Assembly: GCA_036495095.1 (NCBI GenBank)
Contig: DASXNK010000148.1
Coordinates: forward strand, 1-64,000
DNA: 64,000 nucleotides
DNA from: Candidatus Dormiibacterota bacterium
GTDB lineage: Bacteria > Chloroflexota > Dormibacteria > Aeolococcales > Aeolococcaceae
Direction: 5' to 3'
Shown here: positions 2,500 through 64,000 of the stretch, in pieces
Layout of the letters: every line of letters begins with the position of its first letter
Position numbering within the stretch: the stretch's first letter is position 1
Program-made: the position numbers and the translations under genes
The notes under the pieces: generated by a model
Seen by the model: the letters and a program-made list of their open reading frames with translations, nothing else
What the model was told of the DNA's origin: nothing
Databases searched by the model: none

Positions 2500-3687
2500 T
2501 CACGGTGGCTCCACCCCCAGCTCTCCGTCCGGTCCGCGGCGCACCCGCCACCCTCCCTCGTGGACGAGGCGATGGTGCACCCGGCAGAGCAGGACGAGGT
2601 TGGGCAGCGTCGACGGGCCGTGCTCCTCACGCGGCACGATGTGATGGGCCTCGGTCCACTCCGGGGGACGGTCGCAGTCGGGGAACCGGCAGCCCCGGTC
2701 CCGCTCCTGCAGCCACTGCCGCAGCCACGGCGACACGGTGGGGGACGGCGGGCTCACCGCCAGCACCTCGCCCTGGGCTCCGACGGTCACGTCGGTGCGC
2801 ACCGCGTCGCAGGCGAGCCGGCGCGCGGTGTCCGCGACCACCGGGCCGGCCCAGCGCAGGTCCCCGCCGGGCCAGCCGGGCTCGCCGCGGAGGGTGGCGA
2901 GCGGCACCGTCACCGAGAGGTGCGGGCGCTGGCCCGCCACCTGGGGACGTTCGTTGTGGGTGAGGTCACGGTGGCAGAGCTCGACGAGGGCGGCGGCACG
3001 GCGCTGGCCTGCGGAGCGCCCGTCGCCGGGCAGCGGTCGCATGTACCGGCCGATCGCGGTCGTCAGGGTGGCGCCGGCCTCGGCGTCGAGGTCGCCGTCG
3101 AGGCGGTACCTGCCGTCCAGGGTCTGGCTGAGGTGCACGCGGTTGCGCTCGTGGTCGCGGTTGGCGTCGCGGAGCGCACCGCCGGCGTCGACGCACTCGC
3201 GGAACCGGCGGGTCAGATAGGCGAACTCCCGGACGTCGAACCGGCGGGCGTGGATCAGGAGGTCGGCCTCCGCCTCGCGCACCGCATCGTCCCCGACATC
3301 AGCCGCGGTGCGAGCCATCAGCGAGGCGTGCTGGTAGCCGAGCTCGCCATCCCGCAGCGCCGCGGAGGTCAGCGGGAGCTCCTCCAGCCGGCGAGCGGTG
3401 CCCACCATCTCCGCCGCAGCACCGGGCGACATCCGGCAGCGCGCGGTCGCCCAGGCGACCATCGAGGCTGCTCCCTGGTCGCGGTGTCCGCGCAGCCGCT
3501 CGAAGCCCGCCACGCAGCGGGCGCGGTCGCCCCTCAGCGCGTCCACAGCCACGGTCAGGGCGACGATCCGATCGCTGAGCGCGGTCGCTGGGAGACCCTC
3601 GACGCACTCTCCCCGCAGCGCCGCCACCGCCTGCGCGAGCAGCTCGAGGGGAGTGGGTGCGGCCAGCTCGGGAGCGGTTCTGAGCAC
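2500..3687 (-). CDS. DUF222 / HNH endonuclease-domain protein
   Basis: A ~395-residue protein of the DUF222-HNH type, common in actinobacteria and often multicopy. The N-terminal ~300 residues are the helical DUF222 region. The last ~60 residues hold the HNH nuclease motif: CRFPDC, then EAHHIVP (catalytic HH), an Asn in STLPNLVLLC and a closing HHRLVHEGGW. Cys pairs suggest a structural zinc. Its substrate is unknown; such genes are often linked to mobile DNA, and this one lies just beyond an element's integration site. The start is taken as GTG 3687 because a TACAAT -10-like box ends 6 nt upstream; ATG 3708 is the alternative and would place that box inside the coding region. Confidence 0.88.
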   Translation of the reverse strand: MLRTAPELAAPTPLELLAQAVAALRGECVEGLPATALSDRIVALTVAVDALRGDRARCVAGFERLRGHRDQGAASMVAWATARCRMSPGAAAEMVGTARRLEELPLTSAALRDGELGYQHASLMARTAADVGDDAVREAEADLLIHARRFDVREFAYLTRRFRECVDAGGALRDANRDHERNRVHLSQTLDGRYRLDGDLDAEAGATLTTAIGRYMRPLPGDGRSAGQRRAAALVELCHRDLTHNERPQVAGQRPHLSVTVPLATLRGEPGWPGGDLRWAGPVVADTARRLACDAVRTDVTVGAQGEVLAVSPPSPTVSPWLRQWLQERDRGCRFPDCDRPPEWTEAHHIVPREEHGPSTLPNLVLLCRVHHRLVHEGGWRVRRGPDGELGVEPP

Positions 3688-3774
3688 CACAGGATTGTAG
3701 CAGAACATGAGTTCGTACACGCGCGATGAGAGGCCCTGGGCACGCCACGCCCCCGGGGCGTAGGATTCGGTCTC

Positions 3775-4854
3775 ATGCACGGGTGCGACGGTCGCGGGCG
3801 GGACGGCGCCCCCCACGCCCAGCCGCCGGCGCGGCGGGTGCGCCGGCTGTGGCTGCTCTGCGGCTGCGCCACCGTCCTCGCGGTCACGGCCGCCGCGCCG
3901 GCGCAGGCGGCGGGAACCGCCACCCCCAACGATCCCTACTTCGTCCAGCACGACCAATGGCCGCTCACCGGGCAGCCGGCGAGCATCGACGCGCCCGGCG
4001 CCTGGACGGCGAGCACCGGCACCGGCGTGCTGATCGCCGACATCGACACCGGCGCCGACTTCGCCCATCCCGACCTGGCCGGCCGTCTCGTCCCCGGCGG
4101 CCGCTTCACGAAGTGCGACGGGAGCCTGCAGGCCTCCGACCAGGCCTCGGTGCAGGACGACGTCGGCCACGGCACCATGACCACCGGGCTGATGGTCGCC
4201 AACACCAACAACGGCACCGGCATCGCCTCGGTCGCACCCGACGCCAGGGCGCTGATCATCAAGGTGATCGACAAGGCGGGCAAGGGCTGCGATGCCGACG
4301 TCGCCGCCGCCATCAGGTACGCGGTGACCCGGGGCGCGAAGGTCATCAACATCAGCCTCGGCTCGGACATCCCGCTGGCGCCGCTGCTCGCCGGCAGCGG
4401 CATCCCCGACGCGGTGCGGGCCGCCGCCCAGAGCGGGGTCGCGGTCGCGCTCGCGGCCGGCAACAGCTCGCTGCCGTTCAGCGACTACGACTCGATCACC
4501 GACGTCGCGCTCATCACCGGTGCTCTCGGCCCCAACGCCTCGGTCGCCCCCTACTCGACCAGCGGCGGCGGGGTGAACATCTACGCCCCGGGCGGCGACA
4601 GCGGGCAGTCGACCAGCGGCCCGCACGCCAAGGGCCAGGTGCTCTCCACCGCGCTCACCAACGGCGGCTACAAGGCCGAGCAGGGAACGTCCTTCGCCGC
4701 ACCGCACGTCGCCGGCGTGCTCGCGCTGCTGATCGCCTGCGGGCTGAACTCCTCCCAGGCGCGGCAGCGCATCCTCTCCACCGCGCGCGGAGGCGGGGGA
4801 GGGGTGCCGCGCCTCGATGCGGCGGCGGCGGTGCACGGCGCCGGTCACTGCTGA
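3775..4854 (+). CDS. Secreted subtilisin-like serine protease (S8)
   Basis: A 359-residue exported protease. A basic N-terminus is followed by a hydrophobic core ending APAQA around residues 24-48, a Sec-type signal. The catalytic triad is complete: Asp in ADIDTGADFAHPDL, His in DVGHGTMTTG and Ser in EQGTSFAAPHVAG, with the oxyanion Asn in ALAAGNSS. There is no long propeptide between signal and catalytic domain, and no C-terminal wall anchor, though the tail is cut short at GHC. TAGGAT at 3761-3766 lies 8 nt before the ATG, so the mRNA may be leaderless. Its stop overlaps the start region of an adenylate cyclase gene by 4 nt, an unusual partner for a secreted protease. Confidence 0.92.
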   Translation: MHGCDGRGRDGAPHAQPPARRVRRLWLLCGCATVLAVTAAAPAQAAGTATPNDPYFVQHDQWPLTGQPASIDAPGAWTASTGTGVLIADIDTGADFAHPDLAGRLVPGGRFTKCDGSLQASDQASVQDDVGHGTMTTGLMVANTNNGTGIASVAPDARALIIKVIDKAGKGCDADVAAAIRYAVTRGAKVINISLGSDIPLAPLLAGSGIPDAVRAAAQSGVAVALAAGNSSLPFSDYDSITDVALITGALGPNASVAPYSTSGGGVNIYAPGGDSGQSTSGPHAKGQVLSTALTNGGYKAEQGTSFAAPHVAGVLALLIACGLNSSQARQRILSTARGGGGGVPRLDAAAAVHGAGHC

Positions 4855-57261: not shown

Positions 57262-57334
57262 GGCCGCACCTCCGTAGTGAGTGGCTCCTGCCTTTCATTA
57301 TAGCGAGGCTGTCATGTCAGGCCGGATGGGCCGG

Positions 57335-57796
57335 TCACTCGGTCCGCCCCCTGCGCTCCGCGCTGACCACCCGGTCGAGGGCGGTGCGGAGGACCCCGAC
57401 CTCGGCGCCGGAGAGGTGGCGGGCGAAGTGGGCCTCGATGCCGCGGAGGTGGACGGGGGCGGCGCGGCGGAGCGCCGCCCGGCCCGCCGGGGTGAGCACC
57501 GCGTTGGCGCCGCGTCCGTCGGAGGGGTGGGCCTCGCGGCAGACCAGCCCGGCCGCCACCATGCGGTCGACCAGCCGGGTCAGCCCGCTGCGGCTGAGCA
57601 GCACCGCGTCGGCGAGGTCGCGCATCCGCAGCCGCCCCTGGGGGGCGCCAGAGAGCTGGAGGAGGACGTCGTACCAGGCCAGCGGGAGGCCGCACTCGGC
57701 CTCGAGCTCGGCCCCGAGCCGGTCGACGACGGCGGCGTGGGTCTCGAGCAGCAGGCGCCAGGCGGCGAGGCGCTCGGGGTCGGGACGGCGGGCCAC
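57335..57796 (-). CDS. MarR-family transcriptional regulator
   Basis: About 153 residues. The winged helix is clear: YDVLLQLSGAPQGRLRMRDLADAVLLSRSGLTRLVDRMVAAGLVCREAHPSDGRGA. The wing has the Asp-Gly-Arg of the family, with dimerisation helices on both sides. By family it binds a palindromic operator as a dimer and is released by small phenolic or oxidising ligands. An 18-bp inverted repeat lies just upstream. Start GTG 57796 is preferred because TAGGAT ends 7 nt before it; ATG 57805 overlaps the box. The regulated target is unclear; the DUF4214 protein is divergent. Confidence 0.9.
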   Translation of the reverse strand: MARRPDPERLAAWRLLLETHAAVVDRLGAELEAECGLPLAWYDVLLQLSGAPQGRLRMRDLADAVLLSRSGLTRLVDRMVAAGLVCREAHPSDGRGANAVLTPAGRAALRRAAPVHLRGIEAHFARHLSGAEVGVLRTALDRVVSAERRGRTE

Positions 57797-57815
57797 CCCG
57801 CCCATCCTAGCATCG

Positions 57816-57833
57816 TCGTTGCAGGCACAACGA
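57816..57833. promoter_or_regulatory. Probable MarR operator
   Basis: TCGTTG-N6-CAACGA, a perfect inverted repeat of the size used by MarR dimers, lies 7 nt upstream of the putative -10 box (TAGGAT, 57809-57804) of the marR gene, where binding would block its own transcription. Confidence 0.6.
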
Positions 57834-57876
57834 TCGTGGCCGCGGGACGGAGGTCCCGACCGGCCGCCGCTGTCAC

Positions 57877-57904
57877 GGATCTGCGACGGCGCGGTCGCAG
57901 ATCC
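57877..57904. promoter_or_regulatory. 28-bp perfect palindrome
   Basis: GGATCTGCGAC and its exact complement are separated by 6 nt (GGCGCG). It lies 123 nt before the DUF4214 gene and could be an operator or a leader hairpin. No U tract follows on either strand. Confidence 0.55.
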
Positions 57905-58027
57905 TCCGACGGCGGATCGCGGAGCAAGAACTTGCGGCGTTTCGACGTTCCCACGAGGACGGAACCGGATTTCCGGGGCGAGACCCGTCTCCTCTGGACT
58001 CCCTCTCTTGCTTCAGCTGAGGACGTG

Positions 58028-59731
58028 ATGACCAAGCGCCTGACCCCCGCAACGACAACGGCGATCGGTGTGATCACCGTGTCGCTCCTTGCCGCCGGGG
58101 GATCCCGGCTGTTCGTGCCCTGGCACGTGGCGGCGGCCACCGCCGGCACGATCGCCATCGACAAGGCAGCGCTGCCGCCCGACGGCGTGTCGACGGCGGT
58201 GGTGACCGTCAGCAACGGCGCCTGCGGTGCCCTGCTCGGCATCGGAGCCGGCTCCGCGGTGGTGCAGGCCGACAACGGCGCGACCTTCTCGGCCTCGCAG
58301 ACCGGACCCTTCACCGCCACCGTCACCGTGCCCCTCGGCAGCAGCGGGCAGGCCCAGGTCCTGGTCCGGGCGACCAGCACCCCGGGCCTCCAGAACGTCT
58401 GGGCGACCTTCAGCCCCGGCACCCTCGCCGCCAACTGCACCGGCCAGACCGCGAACGCGCAGTTCACGGAGCTCGGTACCGCCGCCTCGGTCACCCTCGA
58501 CGCCCCGGCGCCGGCCCGCCTCCAGGTGTCGACCCCGACCACCAAGGCGCACGTCATCGCGCACGTGGCCGACGCCAGCTCCGGCCCCGTCCCCGGCGAC
58601 AAGGTCTTCCTGGTCCGCAACGGCGACCCCGCCAGCGCGGTCGCGATGACCGACGCCGGCAGCGGAACCTACACCGCGGACGTCGCGCCGGCCACCGCCC
58701 CGAAGAGCGAGTCACTGATCGCGGTCGACACCAGCACGAACCCGAACCTGCTGTCCCCGGCGCAGACGCTGAGCAGCGTCTCCAGCAACGCGGACTGCAC
58801 CCACCTCGGGCTGAAGTTCGCCCCGGCCGGCCTCACCGCGGACGGGACCAGCACCTCGACGGCGTCGGCCACCTTCGTCAACGGCACCGCGCCGGCGGCC
58901 GGCGAGCCGGTGACCTTCACCGCGGATCCCGGACTCAACATCACCGGGGCCTCGGCGGCCACCGACGCGGCCGGCGTCGCCACGGCGACGATCCATGCCG
59001 GCTACGCGGTCGGCACCAAGAAGGTGACCGTCACCTCGCCCAACTCGCTGATCTCCTGCAGCCAGACCGTGGCGATCAGCAACGGCACCGCCGGCACCAA
59101 GGACTCGGGCCAGCTCAGCCGCTTCATCTACCGCGCCTACAACGACGTGCTCCACCGCGTCGGCGAGGACCCCGGGGTCGAGTACTTCGGCAACTTCCTC
59201 ACCTTCGGCGGCTCGCGCGGCCAGGTCGCGCTCACCTTCACCACCACCACCGAGTACCTCACCAACGTGGTGAACGCCACCTACCAGACCTACCTCGGCC
59301 GCGGCGGCGATCCCGGCGGGGTCAGCTACTGGGTGGGCCAGCTCGAGAACGGCGGCACCACCGACGAGCAGCTCGCCGCCCTGTTCATCTCCTCGGACGA
59401 GTTCTACGCCACCCACGGCGGCACCGACGGCGGCTGGGTCGACGGCCTCTACCACGTCGTCCTCGGCCGCGCCCCCGACGCCCCGGGCAGGCAGAACTGG
59501 CTCGACGCCCTCCAGAACGGCTGGAGCCGCACCCAGGTCGCCTACTTCTTCACCGGCTCCACCGAGCAGCTGAACAACAAGGTGATCGGCTACTTCTCCA
59601 CCTTCCTCCACCGCGGCCCCGGCTCCATCGATGACGTGAACTACTGGGTCCACGCGATGCAGAACGGGGTCCACGACGAGAACGTGATGGCGGCCTTCAT
59701 CGGCTCGCAGGAGTACTACGACAGGTCCTAG
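58028..59731 (+). CDS. Secreted Ig-like and DUF4214-repeat surface protein
   Basis: 567 residues. A signal sequence (AIGVITVSLLAAGGS...) is followed by three Ig-like regions (about residues 40-125, 155-245, 265-345; Big_1-like, with FTATVTVPLG and GVATATIHAGYAVG). From ~360 to the end come four DUF4214-type units of ~50 residues, each with a Y-x-x-x-L-x-R turn followed by G-x-x-(Y/N)W and a helix ending in S-x-E. DUF4214 often occurs in S-layer-like or secreted enzymes as a binding module. Start ATG 58028; GTG 58025 directly precedes it. A large hairpin follows the stop. Confidence 0.82.
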   Translation: MTKRLTPATTTAIGVITVSLLAAGGSRLFVPWHVAAATAGTIAIDKAALPPDGVSTAVVTVSNGACGALLGIGAGSAVVQADNGATFSASQTGPFTATVTVPLGSSGQAQVLVRATSTPGLQNVWATFSPGTLAANCTGQTANAQFTELGTAASVTLDAPAPARLQVSTPTTKAHVIAHVADASSGPVPGDKVFLVRNGDPASAVAMTDAGSGTYTADVAPATAPKSESLIAVDTSTNPNLLSPAQTLSSVSSNADCTHLGLKFAPAGLTADGTSTSTASATFVNGTAPAAGEPVTFTADPGLNITGASAATDAAGVATATIHAGYAVGTKKVTVTSPNSLISCSQTVAISNGTAGTKDSGQLSRFIYRAYNDVLHRVGEDPGVEYFGNFLTFGGSRGQVALTFTTTTEYLTNVVNATYQTYLGRGGDPGGVSYWVGQLENGGTTDEQLAALFISSDEFYATHGGTDGGWVDGLYHVVLGRAPDAPGRQNWLDALQNGWSRTQVAYFFTGSTEQLNNKVIGYFSTFLHRGPGSIDDVNYWVHAMQNGVHDENVMAAFIGSQEYYDRS

Positions 59732-60028: not shown

Positions 60029-60457
60029 TCAGCCGGCGGCGTCACCCGGGGGCAGCTGCCGGCGCAGCGCCCGGGCGTGGCCGCCCTCCGCCGCGGCGAG
60101 CAGGTCGAACCATGCGGCCACCCCGGTGAGGCCCTCCTCGCGGGCGACCTGGGCATAGCGGGGGAACATCTCGGCGTGCTCGTAGGTCTCGGTGCCGAGG
60201 GCGTTGCGGAGGTTCTCGTCGGTGCTGCCCATCGGGGCGCCGCTGACCGGGTCGCCGGTCTCCTCGAGGATCTCGAGCAGGCCCAGGGCGTGCCCGGTCG
60301 AGCCCTCGGCGAGCCCGCGGAGCACCGCCGCGGCCTCCGACCAGCCCTCGATGTCGGCGCGACGGGCGAAGTGCAGCAGGCGCCGGTTGGCGGCCGCCTC
60401 GCGGGCGAAGGCGGTGCGGAGCCCCGCCTCGGTGCGGCTGTCGCGCAGTCCTGCCAT
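60029..60457 (-). CDS. Rubrerythrin-like ferritin-fold protein with an incomplete metal site
   Basis: 142 residues. Helices follow the rubrerythrin pattern: AFAREAAANRRLLHFARRADIEG, ETYEHAEMFPRYAQVAREEG and a closing EGGHARAL (an intact E-x-x-H). In the first half the matching E-x-x-H reads STGH, so one bridging Glu is missing. There is no rubredoxin tail. A role in peroxide or iron handling is likely by family, though the diiron site may be altered. TACTGT ends 7 nt before the ATG. It follows the Rieske gene by 22 nt. Confidence 0.72.
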   Translation of the reverse strand: MAGLRDSRTEAGLRTAFAREAAANRRLLHFARRADIEGWSEAAAVLRGLAEGSTGHALGLLEILEETGDPVSGAPMGSTDENLRNALGTETYEHAEMFPRYAQVAREEGLTGVAAWFDLLAAAEGGHARALRRQLPPGDAAG

Positions 60458-60479
60458 GGCCCACACAGTAGCTCCCGGG

Positions 60480-60866
60480 TCACCCCTCGGCGGTCGGCTC
60501 CCCGGGCGCGGGGGCGCGGCGTCGGGGGCCCACCCACACGTGGCCGTCGTGCTCCTCCACCTCGTAGAGGACCAGGTCGCGCAGGCAGGCCCGCCTCTCG
60601 GCGGGGAAGACCCGCGCCGGGTAGCCGTTGCGGCCGGTGCGGAGGTCGTAGGTGTAGTGGTGGTATGGGCAGTCGACCTCGTCCGACCAGATCCGTGCCT
60701 CGTCGAGGGGGTTGCCCTCGTGGGGACAGGTGGTGCCGAAGGCCACCGGCTGTCCGTCGCTGAGGCGGGCGAGCAGCACCGGGATGCCCTCGACCACGGC
60801 GCGGTGGACCCGCTGGTCGACCTCGGCGGAGGGGAGGGCCCGGGCAAAAGCGGTGCGCGGCATCAT
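60480..60866 (-). CDS. Rieske [2Fe-2S] ferredoxin-like protein
   Basis: 128 residues. The cluster motifs are CPHEGNPLD and CPYHHYTYD, each giving one Cys and one His ligand. A small beta domain surrounds them (PVLLARLSDGQPVAFGTT; LVLYEVEEHDGHVWVG). No membrane anchor, so it is a soluble electron carrier. It lies between two ferritin-fold genes on the same strand and may pass electrons to them. Start ATG 60866 or 60863; GTG 60893 is further out. Confidence 0.88.
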   Translation of the reverse strand: MMPRTAFARALPSAEVDQRVHRAVVEGIPVLLARLSDGQPVAFGTTCPHEGNPLDEARIWSDEVDCPYHHYTYDLRTGRNGYPARVFPAERRACLRDLVLYEVEEHDGHVWVGPRRRAPAPGEPTAEG

Positions 60867-60944
60867 CCGCCCATCCGGTGGGGAGCGCACCACGGCCGGC
60901 GCACCCCGGGGAGTGCCGGCCGTGGCCGCAGCGGAGGACCCGTC

Positions 60945-61622
60945 CTAGCGGCCGAGGTCCGAGCTCATGAAGCCGCGCACGAAGGGGGAGTCGCCGGGCT
61001 TGGCGCGGCGGAAGTGGCCGCTCGGCCCCTCGCCGAGGAACTCGCTGAACCACGACTCGTGCTCGATCTCCTCGTGGAGGATGGCGAGCGAGAGCGCGTA
61101 GGTGCGGTGGTCCTTGCCGAAGGTGTAGTCGCAGATGTCCGTGTAGGTGCGGATCGCGCAGCGCTCCGCCTCGACCAGCACCCGGAGCAGGTCGTGGATC
61201 TGGTTCGGCGAGCCGGTCGGCTTGCCGCCGTTGCCGCCCGGGGAGAGGCTCGGATACTCACCCATCTCCGTCTTCAGGCTGCCGGGGAGGCTGGAGACGG
61301 ACTCGTTTCCGGCCATGCTGTCCGGGAGGTAGGCGTCCGGGCAGCCGGCGACGTCGGCGAAGGCGCGGATGTCCCGGGGGATCTGGCCGCCGAGCTCGTA
61401 GATGCGCGGCACCAGCGCCTCGAAGTGGTTGCGGTCCTCGATGCGGGCGTCCTCGATGATCTCCTTGAGACCCTCTCCCTCCATGCCGATCGAGTTCACC
61501 CGGAGCACCGTGTAGTAGTAGAAGGTCGTGAACTCGGCGGCGGCGGCACGGACCAGCTTGTCGACGAGCACCTCGCGATCGAGACCGGCCCTGGTCACCA
61601 TCTCCTGAGCAACGCTTCCCAC
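60945..61622 (-). CDS. Dps/ferritin-like protein
   Basis: 225 residues. Four-helix ferritin fold: [72 protein letters not shown] and [19 protein letters not shown]. The second pair has the canonical E and E-x-x-H; the first pair has Glu and D-x-x-H. A ~45-residue loop separates the halves. It resembles archaeal-type DpsA proteins that oxidise and store iron and protect DNA. Start GTG 61622 has GGAGG 7 nt upstream. A TACCAT box at 61679-61674 may be its -10. Confidence 0.8.
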
Positions 61623-61754
61623 GTCTGATCCTCCACGTCGTGCGGATGGTCGGCAGAGAATGAGGATACGCCGATGGTACAAAGCATTAGAAAGTGACTA
61701 TCGCTTCAGACCGGCCGTTCCGGCCCCGGCTGCGCCGGCACGGCGGAGGGCGCC

Positions 61755-61955
61755 TCAGTCCCGGCCCAGCTGGCGGAGCGCCGCGGCCAGGCAGGCGGGG
61801 CAGGCGGGGGCCCCTCCACCCTGCAGCGAGCATTCGGCGCTGAGGTGCCCGTCCCACAGCCGTTCCGCGCGGGGGCGGGTGGGCAGCCGCGGCGGCAGCG
61901 CGTCGCCCCCGTTGGACGCCGCCTCCGGCGCCAGCGGCTGCATCGCCGCGCTCAC
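61755..61955 (-). CDS. Small CPxC protein coupled to pgl
   Basis: 66 residues from a GTG that overlaps the pgl stop (GTGA). The first half is Pro/Ala/Arg-rich. The second half contains AECSLQGGGAPACPACLAAAL, with three or four Cys suited to metal binding or a disulphide. Not recognised as a family. The overlap with pgl and good continuity with the zwf-opcA-pgl run support coding. Confidence 0.5.
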   Translation of the reverse strand: MSAAMQPLAPEAASNGGDALPPRLPTRPRAERLWDGHLSAECSLQGGGAPACPACLAAALRQLGRD

Positions 61956-62689
61956 CCGCCGGGGCCGGCCGCGGCCCGGTCGAGGAACCAGCGCAGCTCG
62001 CCGTGGGTCGGGCGCACCCGGGCGGCGGGCACGGTGCCGGCGACCACCCCGGCGAGCGCGGCCCGCTTCGACTCGCCGCTGACCAGGAAGGCCACGGCGG
62101 CGCCGCCGTTGATCAGCGGGAAGGTCACGGTGATGCGGTCGTAGGGCTCGTAGGTGGCCAGCCCCCGGGTCGCCCAGGCGTCGACCACCTCGAGGGCCGG
62201 GGTGCCGGGGAAGAGTGAGGCGGTGTGCCCGTCGGTGCCGATGCCGAGGAGGATCACGTCGAGCCGCGGCGCACCCGCGGGGCCGGCGGGCAGGGCGCCC
62301 TCGAGCAGCGCCGAGTACTCGGCGGCGGCGGCATCGAGGTCGGGGCGCTCCGCCTCCATGCGGTGCACCTGGCCCGGGGGGATGGGCACGTGGTCGAGCA
62401 GGGTCGTGCGCGCGAGCCGGTAGTTGCTCTCGGGGTGGTCGGGTGGGGCGGCGCGCTCGTCGCCGAAGTAGACGTGCCAGCGCGACCAGTCGAGGGTGTC
62501 ACGGTGCGGAGGGCTCGCCAGCCGCTGGTACAGCGCCTTTGGCGTGCTCCCGCCGGCGAGGGCGATGCTGAACGCGCCCGCGCTCGCGATCGCCGCCGCC
62601 TGGGTCGCCACCACCCACTCGGTGGCGCGCTCGGCGAGAGCCTCGGCGTCGGCGCTGACCTCGACGGTCCCGGGCAGCGCCGGGGTCAC
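61952..62689 (-). CDS. pgl: 6-phosphogluconolactonase
   Basis: 245 residues hydrolysing 6-phosphogluconolactone in the oxidative pentose phosphate pathway. FSIALAGGSTPKALYQRL, the YFGDERAAPPDHPESNY substrate loop, LLGIGTDGHTASLFPG and a late SGESKRAAL are diagnostic. The GTG start overlaps the opcA stop, forming zwf-opcA-pgl. Confidence 0.95.
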   Translation of the reverse strand: MTPALPGTVEVSADAEALAERATEWVVATQAAAIASAGAFSIALAGGSTPKALYQRLASPPHRDTLDWSRWHVYFGDERAAPPDHPESNYRLARTTLLDHVPIPPGQVHRMEAERPDLDAAAAEYSALLEGALPAGPAGAPRLDVILLGIGTDGHTASLFPGTPALEVVDAWATRGLATYEPYDRITVTFPLINGGAAVAFLVSGESKRAALAGVVAGTVPAARVRPTHGELRWFLDRAAAGPGG

Positions 62690-63741
62690 ATCCTGTGGCC
62701 GGCGGCGGCGAGCAGGGCGGCGAGGTAGACCGGGTCGGCACCCTGCTCCTCGAGCTGGGTGCCCACCAGCTCGACCAGGCCGGGGCGCTCGGCGCCGCTG
62801 GTCCAGGTGGAGGAGAGGCTCCGCATCGCGCCCTCGACGGTGATCGAGGTCGTGCGCCGGTCGCCCTCTCCGGAGATCTCCACCCGGGCCACCCGGTCGC
62901 GCTGCCGGGCGCGGATCGCCACCCCCAGGACCTCGCCGGCGCTGCCGTAGCCGGGGACGTGCAGCACCGCGGGCACGGGTGACCCCGCCCGCTCGAGGCG
63001 TGAGGTCAGCCAGCCGGCGAGCAGCCGCGCCTCGGCGCTCGGTGGGGTGCTGGCGCAGCGCACCTCCACCTCCTCGATCCCCCGGGCGAAGCCGCGCAGC
63101 TCGCGGGTGTCGAAGGCACGGCCGAGCAGCTCCCGCCAGGGGCGGAGCCGGCTCCAGGCGAGGTCGCCGATCGGAGGGACGGAGGGGAGGCGCTCCACCG
63201 TCCGCGCCAGCGTCGCCAGGGTGGCGGCGGGGTCGGGATAGGCGTCGCTGTCGAGCACCAGCCGCTCGCAGAGCTCGAGGGCGTCGGGGCTCAGCGCCTG
63301 GGTGAGCGGGGGTGCCCCGGCCAGCCAGAGGTAAACGGGGACGTCCGGCAGCAGCAGCGGGCTCACCACGCTGCGGAGGTGGAGGGCGGTCTCGCCGCCG
63401 ACCTCGAGCCGGACCAGCTCGACGCAGATCTGCTCGCCCCGGGTGGCCGAGCAGCTCAGGCTGAGGTCGGCCTCGATCCGGGGCGCGGCCGCCGGGTCGG
63501 CGACGAGCACGATCGCCCGGGTGGGATGGCTCGCCGCGGTCCGCTCGACCACCTGGGCGGCCTGCTCGGCGCTCTCCCGGTCGGCGCAGGCGACCACCAG
63601 GGTGAGCACCGAGAGCCGGACGCTGCGGGTCTCGTCGCCGGCACGCAGCAGCGAGGCGCGCATCTCGGCGAGCTCGCGGGTGACCGCGTGGAGCCCGCTG
63701 ACATGCTGGGCGCGGAGCAGGCCCGCGCCGGTGGCCGCCAC
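62686..63741 (-). CDS. opcA: Glucose-6-phosphate dehydrogenase assembly protein OpcA
   Basis: 351 residues. OpcA proteins from cyanobacteria and actinobacteria bind G6PDH and activate it; here the gene sits 2 nt after zwf as usual. ATRGEQICVELVRLEVGG, VVSPLLLPDVPVYLWLAGAPP and DLAWSRLRPWRELLGRAFDT match the family. The GTG start is at 63741. Confidence 0.93.
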   Translation of the reverse strand: MAATGAGLLRAQHVSGLHAVTRELAEMRASLLRAGDETRSVRLSVLTLVVACADRESAEQAAQVVERTAASHPTRAIVLVADPAAAPRIEADLSLSCSATRGEQICVELVRLEVGGETALHLRSVVSPLLLPDVPVYLWLAGAPPLTQALSPDALELCERLVLDSDAYPDPAATLATLARTVERLPSVPPIGDLAWSRLRPWRELLGRAFDTRELRGFARGIEEVEVRCASTPPSAEARLLAGWLTSRLERAGSPVPAVLHVPGYGSAGEVLGVAIRARQRDRVARVEISGEGDRRTTSITVEGAMRSLSSTWTSGAERPGLVELVGTQLEEQGADPVYLAALLAAAGHRM

Positions 63742-63743
63742 GG

Positions 63744-64000
63744 CTAGGGCCGCCGCCAGGCGCGGCCGTCGCGGGCGAGCAGGTCGTGCGCCGCCTGCGG
63801 GCCCCAGGTCCCGGCCTCGTGGTTGGGGAAGTCATCGACCTTCGGCGGATGGGCGCGCCAGCCGTCGAGGATGGCGGTGCACAGCCGCCAGGCCTCCTCG
63901 ACCTCGTCCTCGCGGGCGAAGAGGGTGGCGTCGCCGAGCATGCAGTCGAGCAGCAGCCGCTCGTACGCCTCGGGCGACTGGGTGAGGAACGAGCTCCCGT
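63744..64000 (-). CDS. zwf: Glucose-6-phosphate 1-dehydrogenase, C-terminal part (cut by window edge)
   Basis: Only the last ~85 residues are in the window: SPEAYERLLLDCMLGDATLFAREDEVEEAW, then ILDGWRAHPP and NHEAGTWGPQAAHDLLARDGRAW, the standard C-terminus of NADP-dependent G6PDH. It is the first enzyme of the pathway and the head of the zwf-opcA-pgl run. Confidence 0.95.
   Translation of the reverse strand, partial: GSSFLTQSPEAYERLLLDCMLGDATLFAREDEVEEAWRLCTAILDGWRAHPPKVDDFPNHEAGTWGPQAAHDLLARDGRAWRRP

Follow-up and report, generated by a model that had tools for sequence, protein, structure and literature searches.

Does a Rieske protein encoded between two ferritin-fold proteins act as their electron carrier and, if so, for which of them? 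The locus behind this question lies in the window, a 64,000-nucleotide stretch of a Candidatus Dormiibacterota contig, for which an earlier note had described a soluble Rieske protein between two ferritin-fold proteins and suggested an electron-transfer unit that uses Rieske instead of rubredoxin. Open reading frames and family matches bear out the three genes, all on the minus strand, and the gene order dpsL, Rieske, rubrerythrin confirms the intermediate place of the Rieske gene; the gaps are 81 and 22 nt. The first gene, dpsL (60945..61622), begins with GTG and encodes a DPSL ("thioferritin") mini-ferritin of 225 aa; the second (60480..60863) encodes a Rieske-type [2Fe-2S] ferredoxin of 127 aa, of the dioxygenase-ferredoxin type; and the third, rbrA (60029..60457), encodes a rubrerythrin of 142 aa.

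Upstream on the same strand stand a small ORF with a CPAC motif (61755..61955), which has no Pfam match at E 0.01, and the genes pgl (6-phosphogluconolactonase; 61952..62695; PF01182, 241 bits), opcA (G6PDH assembly protein; 62686..63741; PF10128 and PF20171) and zwf (glucose-6-phosphate dehydrogenase; 63744..63998; PF02781), the last represented by its 3' part where it leaves the window edge. The zwf-opcA-pgl operon (61755-63998) corresponds to the NADPH-making oxidative branch of the pentose phosphate pathway. A sigma-70 scan of the locus found no promoter-like site, and a single, weak terminator-like site (0.3 expected) lies 3' of rbrA. Beyond it, a large convergent protein with DUF4214 and invasin-D3-like domains is encoded at 57281-59731, and a similar frame occupies the same place in a congener.

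The window DpsL belongs to the DPSL, or thioferritin, family, scoring 295.7 bits against NCBIfam PRK13456 (cut-off 158) and 289 bits against Arch_DPS (cut-off 250). The closest solved cage by sequence is the Pyrococcus furiosus DPSL (7stw; E 2.9e-77), which has the same ligand and paired-Cys motif by alignment, and 2clb is also matched. The two proteins differ in that the window DpsL is about 38 residues longer, owing to an extra loop between residues ~103 and 141. Among relatives, L020-L025 have a shorter version of this loop and L026, L027, L028, L032, L037 and L039 a yet smaller one; it is absent from the remaining relatives compared. DPSL proteins are described as having a bacterioferritin-like di-iron centre and a channel to the outside lined by two cysteines (PMC12532284). 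As read off the alignment, the window protein would carry both features, namely bacterioferritin-like di-iron ligands and two conserved cysteines near the centre.

The second gene product scores 49.1 bits against PF00355 (cut-off 20.3) and has both Cys-His pairs (CPH...CPYH). Its AlphaFold model (pLDDT 92.9) leads in Foldseek to dioxygenase-type Rieske ferredoxins, with structures of the toluene 4-monooxygenase ferredoxin T4moC (4p1b, 1vm9 and 4p1c) at ranks 22, 40 and 47. With two Cys-His boxes and a predicted Rieske fold, it is a Rieske-type ferredoxin. It is not a respiratory high-potential (bc1-type) Rieske protein: that type is described as having two additional cysteines that form a disulfide between the boxes (PMC2946596), and these are absent from the window sequence. 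Sulredoxin, NirD and MocE were also rejected, with scores below their curated cut-offs (21.9 against 170, 21.3 against 74.65 and 20.2 against 136.15 bits, respectively).

Conservation of the neighbourhood separates the pair from the third gene. GTDB species genomes were scanned with DpsL alone, which gave 465 relatives; the best 80 of the 465 were kept, a sample that leans to the window's branch. The window Rieske protein has tblastn matches at 24 of these 80 DpsL loci, all on the same strand and downstream of dpsL. The distance from the dpsL stop to the Rieske gene is -8 to 340 nt at 23 of the 24 (start codons assigned by rule) and 1,726 nt at L045. No Rieske gene was found at 56 of the 80 loci, four of which end close to dpsL. 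In a quick tree of 119 DpsL rows (114 different), the window falls within a clade of 30 rows, itself included, that comprises 26 linked rows, one with a Rieske gene near, two cut by a contig end and one unlinked (L021). The sister clade of 62 rows contains 59 without Rieske, two cut and one near. Support for the window clade is moderate (SH-aLRT 82), and the window DpsL sits on a long end branch (0.41). With the window and two duplicate rows left out, 24 of the 25 evaluable window-clade loci from the best 80 are Rieske-linked. Overall, the pairing of DpsL and Rieske is strongly conserved in the window's DpsL clade, and linkage across loci fetched by DpsL, together with the DpsL tree, rules out chance adjacency of these two genes. 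The exception, L021, is a near relative without an adjacent Rieske gene in the ~2 kb downstream of its dpsL; its genome encodes a 66-bit Rieske homologue on a separate contig.

The linked loci carry the labels of eight phyla (Chloroflexota, Actinomycetota, Acidobacteriota, Planctomycetota, Methylomirabilota, Cyanobacteriota, Bacillota and Pseudomonadota), mostly from metagenome bins and for certain phyla from one bin; L024 belongs to a named isolate, Pseudonocardia acidicola K10HN5. The Bacillota label is doubtful, because its DpsL is nearly identical to one labelled Acidobacteriota (L043, L045). Across 25 pairs, DpsL and Rieske distances correlate with r 0.74, a value reached in none of 5000 permutations, although relatedness can inflate such a correlation. 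The Cys2His2 ligands are invariant in the window protein and the 24 linked Rieske copies, which have ten invariant columns and, following the second box, a common signature, GxNx[YFH]Pxx[VIL][YF]P. A stricter form without H holds in 24 of the 25, the exception being L027, which has His for Tyr/Phe.

A reverse test covered 297 Acidobacteriota genomes (the phylum of L030), with part of the first-look Rieske candidates scored. DpsL is matched in 30 genomes at 1e-3; six reach at least 300 bits on the DpsL profile, two of them Rieske-linked, and four more reach about 150. Some Rieske match at 1e-8 occurs in 167 of the 297 genomes; on the Rieske profile, the two linked-DpsL genomes score 166 and 131 bits, and no other candidate scored exceeds 81. 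Because both top genomes (the source of L030 and one with a DpsL identical to L023) were already represented among the 24 linked loci and in the profile, the test speaks for the rarity of this Rieske type elsewhere and adds no independent pair.

The same combination is visible in Archaea. In Sulfolobus solfataricus, DPSL (SSO2079) and the Rieske ferredoxin ARF (SSO2080) are reported to lie side by side on one strand and to respond to H2O2 with 41- and 37-fold induction (PMC2739297). DPSL, the Rieske gene and Nramp are listed in a Sulfolobus UV-response table, in which the Rieske gene climbs clearly, to 5.5, in one column set and weakly (1.7) in the other (PMC2246294). The window shares with Sulfolobus a DPSL gene with an adjacent same-strand Rieske gene; it differs in that the archaeal DPSL proteins lie on other branches of the DpsL tree, and SSO2080 is likened by description. 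Among 300 Thermoproteota genomes (the phylum of L083), 103 match DpsL. The best 30 of these loci include nine with a Rieske-profile match within ~1.5 kb and 21 without; six of the nine matches are downstream on the same strand (one very weak) and three on the opposite strand, and the proteins score 34-58 bits against the bacterial Rieske profile. The window pair is thus a bacterial variant of a pairing already known in Sulfolobus and is not wholly new. Since no Rieske gene was found at 56 of the 80 DpsL loci or at 21 of the 30 Thermoproteota loci, DPSL in general does not need a Rieske carrier.

Which features of DpsL might accompany its partner? The positions E30, E62, D63, H66, C94, E153, C155, E184, E185 and H188 are invariant or nearly so in 28 rows of the window clade and 57 of the sister clade, and the window protein keeps all of them. 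Around the first channel cysteine, the two clades differ: Asp96 is present in 28/28 Rieske-linked-clade rows versus 0/57 in the sister clade, and position 89 is Ala in 26/28 versus His in 57/57. Asp96 is not confined to the Rieske-linked clade, as P. furiosus DPSL has it too.

We lean, by a little more than even chances, towards a joint reading in which DpsL has been inherited together with the Rieske ferredoxin as a two-gene unit, the Rieske protein is a dedicated electron carrier, and the pair was inserted ahead of a resident rubrerythrin gene. DpsL would build a mini-ferritin cage whose bacterioferritin-like di-iron centre uses peroxide to oxidise Fe(II). The Rieske ferredoxin would dock on DpsL, at a putative site around the first channel cysteine and Asp96, and hand over electrons one at a time, either to this centre or to the ferric core. 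These electrons could release stored iron or re-arm the centre for peroxide reduction, as Bfd does for bacterioferritin, and their purpose may be iron release, completed peroxide reduction or both. For this organism we infer the electron transfer and its direction, the joint transcript, and the catalysis and assembly of DpsL. The resident rubrerythrin may share the pair's transcript without belonging to the DpsL-Rieske unit.

Bacterioferritin is a 24-mer with haem, and the cluster of Bfd-type carriers is held by cysteines throughout; the window pair differs in combining a 12-mer family with a Rieske His2Cys2 cluster. Bfd is nevertheless described as a [2Fe-2S] carrier dedicated to one ferritin cage, bacterioferritin, from which it mobilises the iron store (PMC7760384). 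A second precedent is T4moC, a Rieske ferredoxin reported to serve a di-iron enzyme (PMC4200526). It has the dioxygenase-type Rieske fold that is predicted for the window protein; it differs in its partner, an oxygenase and not a ferritin cage, and shares 17-18% identity with the window Rieske. By this analogy, we consider it plausible that a Rieske ferredoxin could serve the DpsL di-iron centre. Within the open-licence literature, the available parts of three sources (PMC2739297, PMC2946596 and PMC2246294) hold no report of Rieske-to-DPSL electron transfer, and the main text of the 2025 P. furiosus DPSL structure paper has no occurrence of Rieske, ferredoxin or reductase (PMC12532284). A Rieske gene that goes with a single DpsL clade across eight phylum labels would name a candidate reductant or iron-release carrier for DPSL cages. 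If the reading is true, mini-ferritins too would have a ferredoxin of their own, as bacterioferritin has in Bfd, though with another type of cluster.

The foremost competing explanation, which we consider a real though clearly lesser possibility, is that the two genes share regulation alone: the Rieske protein would be a general stress ferredoxin, for example for an oxygenase or repair enzyme, under peroxide or iron control together with dpsL and without contact between the proteins. It draws on the Fur-family frames that 13 of 27 window-clade loci have in the 900 nt ahead of dpsL, a count from a blastp cluster (two of the 13 Pfam-checked) that covers window-clade loci alone, some with little upstream sequence. 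We also count these frames, like the joint H2O2 induction in Sulfolobus, towards the carrier reading. At L028, a divergent Redoxin/AhpC-family gene is present, and both kinds of neighbour fit peroxide or iron control. In Sulfolobus, the authors propose no more than a redox-balance role in the text available (PMC2739297), and 3 of the 30 Thermoproteota loci have a different Rieske gene on the opposite strand. Against this reading stands the single signature across the window and 24 linked Rieske proteins, whose divergence tracks that of DpsL; loose co-regulation would permit any Rieske gene. A PerR-type box upstream of the window dpsL was considered and dropped. Its best site scores 9 of 14 and was equalled in 1 of 200 shuffles, and the relatives do not repeat this score: none of the 27 reaches the window's level, the best being L031 (7/200 shuffles), and 24 of the 27 are equalled by more than 22 of 200.

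Further neighbours were observed at single loci or small groups of them. L025 has two overlapping Fur-family-like frames (3350-4554, one Pfam-confirmed) on the strand opposite dpsL. In the Acidobacteriota locus L034, a Pterin-4a-carbinolamine dehydratase gene follows the Rieske gene (3940-4356; Pfam, L034 only), and genes of the same blastp cluster follow the Rieske gene in L031, L033 and L036. In the other DpsL clade, a rubrerythrin gene adjoins DpsL without Rieske in L059, L060 and L067; a fourth rubrerythrin match, at L097, lies ~2.6 kb off. In L104 (3-769), a rubrerythrin whose C-terminus looks rubredoxin-like by eye precedes a Rieske gene, some 0.7 kb ahead of a DpsL of the unlinked type.

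The reading closest to the earlier note, a three-gene unit in which electrons for peroxide reduction reach the rubrerythrin (and DpsL) from the Rieske protein rather than from rubredoxin, appears unlikely to us. In its favour, rbrA follows the Rieske gene by 22 nt on the same strand and its product has no rubredoxin of its own, and a rubredoxin-less rubrerythrin, ferriperoxin with FNR, is described as using a separate donor (PMC3317640). The linkage that the note expected of the trio is nevertheless conserved for DpsL and Rieske and not for the rubrerythrin: tblastn found rubrerythrin in the stretch around dpsL at 4 of the 80 DpsL loci and at none of the 24 Rieske-linked ones; in a congener (G008), the rubrerythrin occupies this position with the pair absent; and the di-iron site of RbrA lacks one bridging glutamate. 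Because the rubrerythrin is outside the conserved unit, the idea of Rieske instead of rubredoxin suits the DpsL-Rieske pair better than the trio. An adjacency of the rubrerythrin to the pair by chance is an explanation that we retain.

The congener also indicates how the present arrangement arose. Here zwf, opcA, pgl, the small CPAC ORF (76% identity) and the rubrerythrin (~85% identical) are contiguous, without DpsL and Rieske. By blastn, the window and the G008 sequence match at ~80% identity up to window position 61757 and from 60447 on, flanks that are 17 bp apart in G008. Between them, the window has a block of 1,309 bp (60448..61756), missing at the same site in G008, that holds dpsL and the Rieske gene directly after the CPAC ORF as the last gene ahead of it. 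The G008 genome is 67% complete, and the insertion place itself is intact. DpsL turns up in a single genome among 50 of the window's order, 13 of which reach 90% completeness with no more than 5% contamination. In its phylum, 9 of 400 genomes give a match at a threshold of E 1e-3, several of these matches being weak. For the window Rieske, the score is 292 bits in its own genome and does not exceed 46 in the other genomes of the order; some Rieske match occurs in 40 of the 50, the window's included. Most likely, then, the rubrerythrin is resident and the DpsL-Rieske pair was inserted ahead of it, insertion being the simplest account of the 1.3-kb difference. An ancient trio is ruled out by the congener's rubrerythrin at the same place without DpsL-Rieske. 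The converse history, in which an ancestor carried the pair in the operon and the congener deleted it, would leave an equally clean 1.3-kb difference, but we judge it very improbable given the single occurrence of DpsL among these 50 genomes and the placement of several of its nearest DpsL relatives in other phyla.

Finally, the resident rubrerythrin has features of its own. RbrA (PF02915, 56.5 bits) has 9onm/4di0 and sulerythrin as its nearest solved relatives. It falls short of the two-domain NCBIfam RuberyRbr (71.7 versus 200 bits), with a match that stops at profile position 137 of 194, and neither profile nor PDB matches reveal a rubredoxin domain. Sulerythrin (1j30) and the Burkholderia pseudomallei rubrerythrin (4di0) are rubredoxin-less like RbrA, over 132-133 aligned residues. 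They differ from it in retaining both bridging glutamates (for sulerythrin, as described in PMC8805299). The loss of a bridging glutamate that had been suspected from STGH in place of ExxH holds up in the alignment, in which Ser53 of RbrA corresponds to the bridging Glu53 of sulerythrin; RbrA retains the remaining six of the ligand positions compared. RbrA therefore departs from the full di-iron ligand set of sulerythrin-like proteins by its Ser at Glu53. A sequencing error is unlikely, because the congener's orthologue has the same Ser. The loop that joins helices B and C of RbrA is two residues shorter than its sulerythrin counterpart, and short loops are said to accompany domain swapping (PMC3317640). 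The sulerythrin site is reported to combine Glu20, Glu53 and His56 of one chain with Glu92 and Glu126 of the other (PMC8805299).

A second rubrerythrin copy, RbrB, is encoded at G000:C22:19654-20055 (L176) and G008:C240:5534-5935 (L175). It keeps Glu53 and His56 and has Asp at Glu20, His at Glu126 and Arg at His129, identically in both species. RbrA has Ser53 in both genus genomes that hold it, with the helix C/D ligands kept; in the third genome of the genus (1.4 Mb, 68% complete), neither RbrA nor RbrB was found. Between species, dN/dS is 0.22 and 0.14 for the two paralogues, and both look to be under purifying selection. We tentatively raise the idea, more doubtful than probable, that opposite losses of bridging glutamates turned RbrA and RbrB into partners in an obligate split-site rubrerythrin, whose electrons might come from the recently gained Rieske ferredoxin. 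Of the two sites in a domain-swapped A-B heterodimer, one would be complete, provided that Asp can replace Glu20, and the other dead; homodimers would have no complete site. Drawn from the sequences of two species of one lineage, this is a testable idea; a plainer account would be that the paralogues decayed independently and serve a non-catalytic role. Eight other homologues from 110 genomes of the class (1e-8, one per genome) all keep Glu53, Glu126 and His129. Glu95 is altered in all eight (to Asp in one); two have also changed at His56 and Glu92, and one of these two carries an in-frame stop. The heterodimer reading is weakened because other rubrerythrins of the class also lose ligands.

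"Aerobic-type" rubrerythrin clusters are described as having adjacent DUF3501 and Fe-S oxidoreductase genes (PMC5114695). The named neighbours of the window rbrA include neither, and the one named neighbour of RbrB is RadC. A partial third rubrerythrin-family match of 26 bits occurs at G000:C99:4429-4569, within a 450-aa frame.
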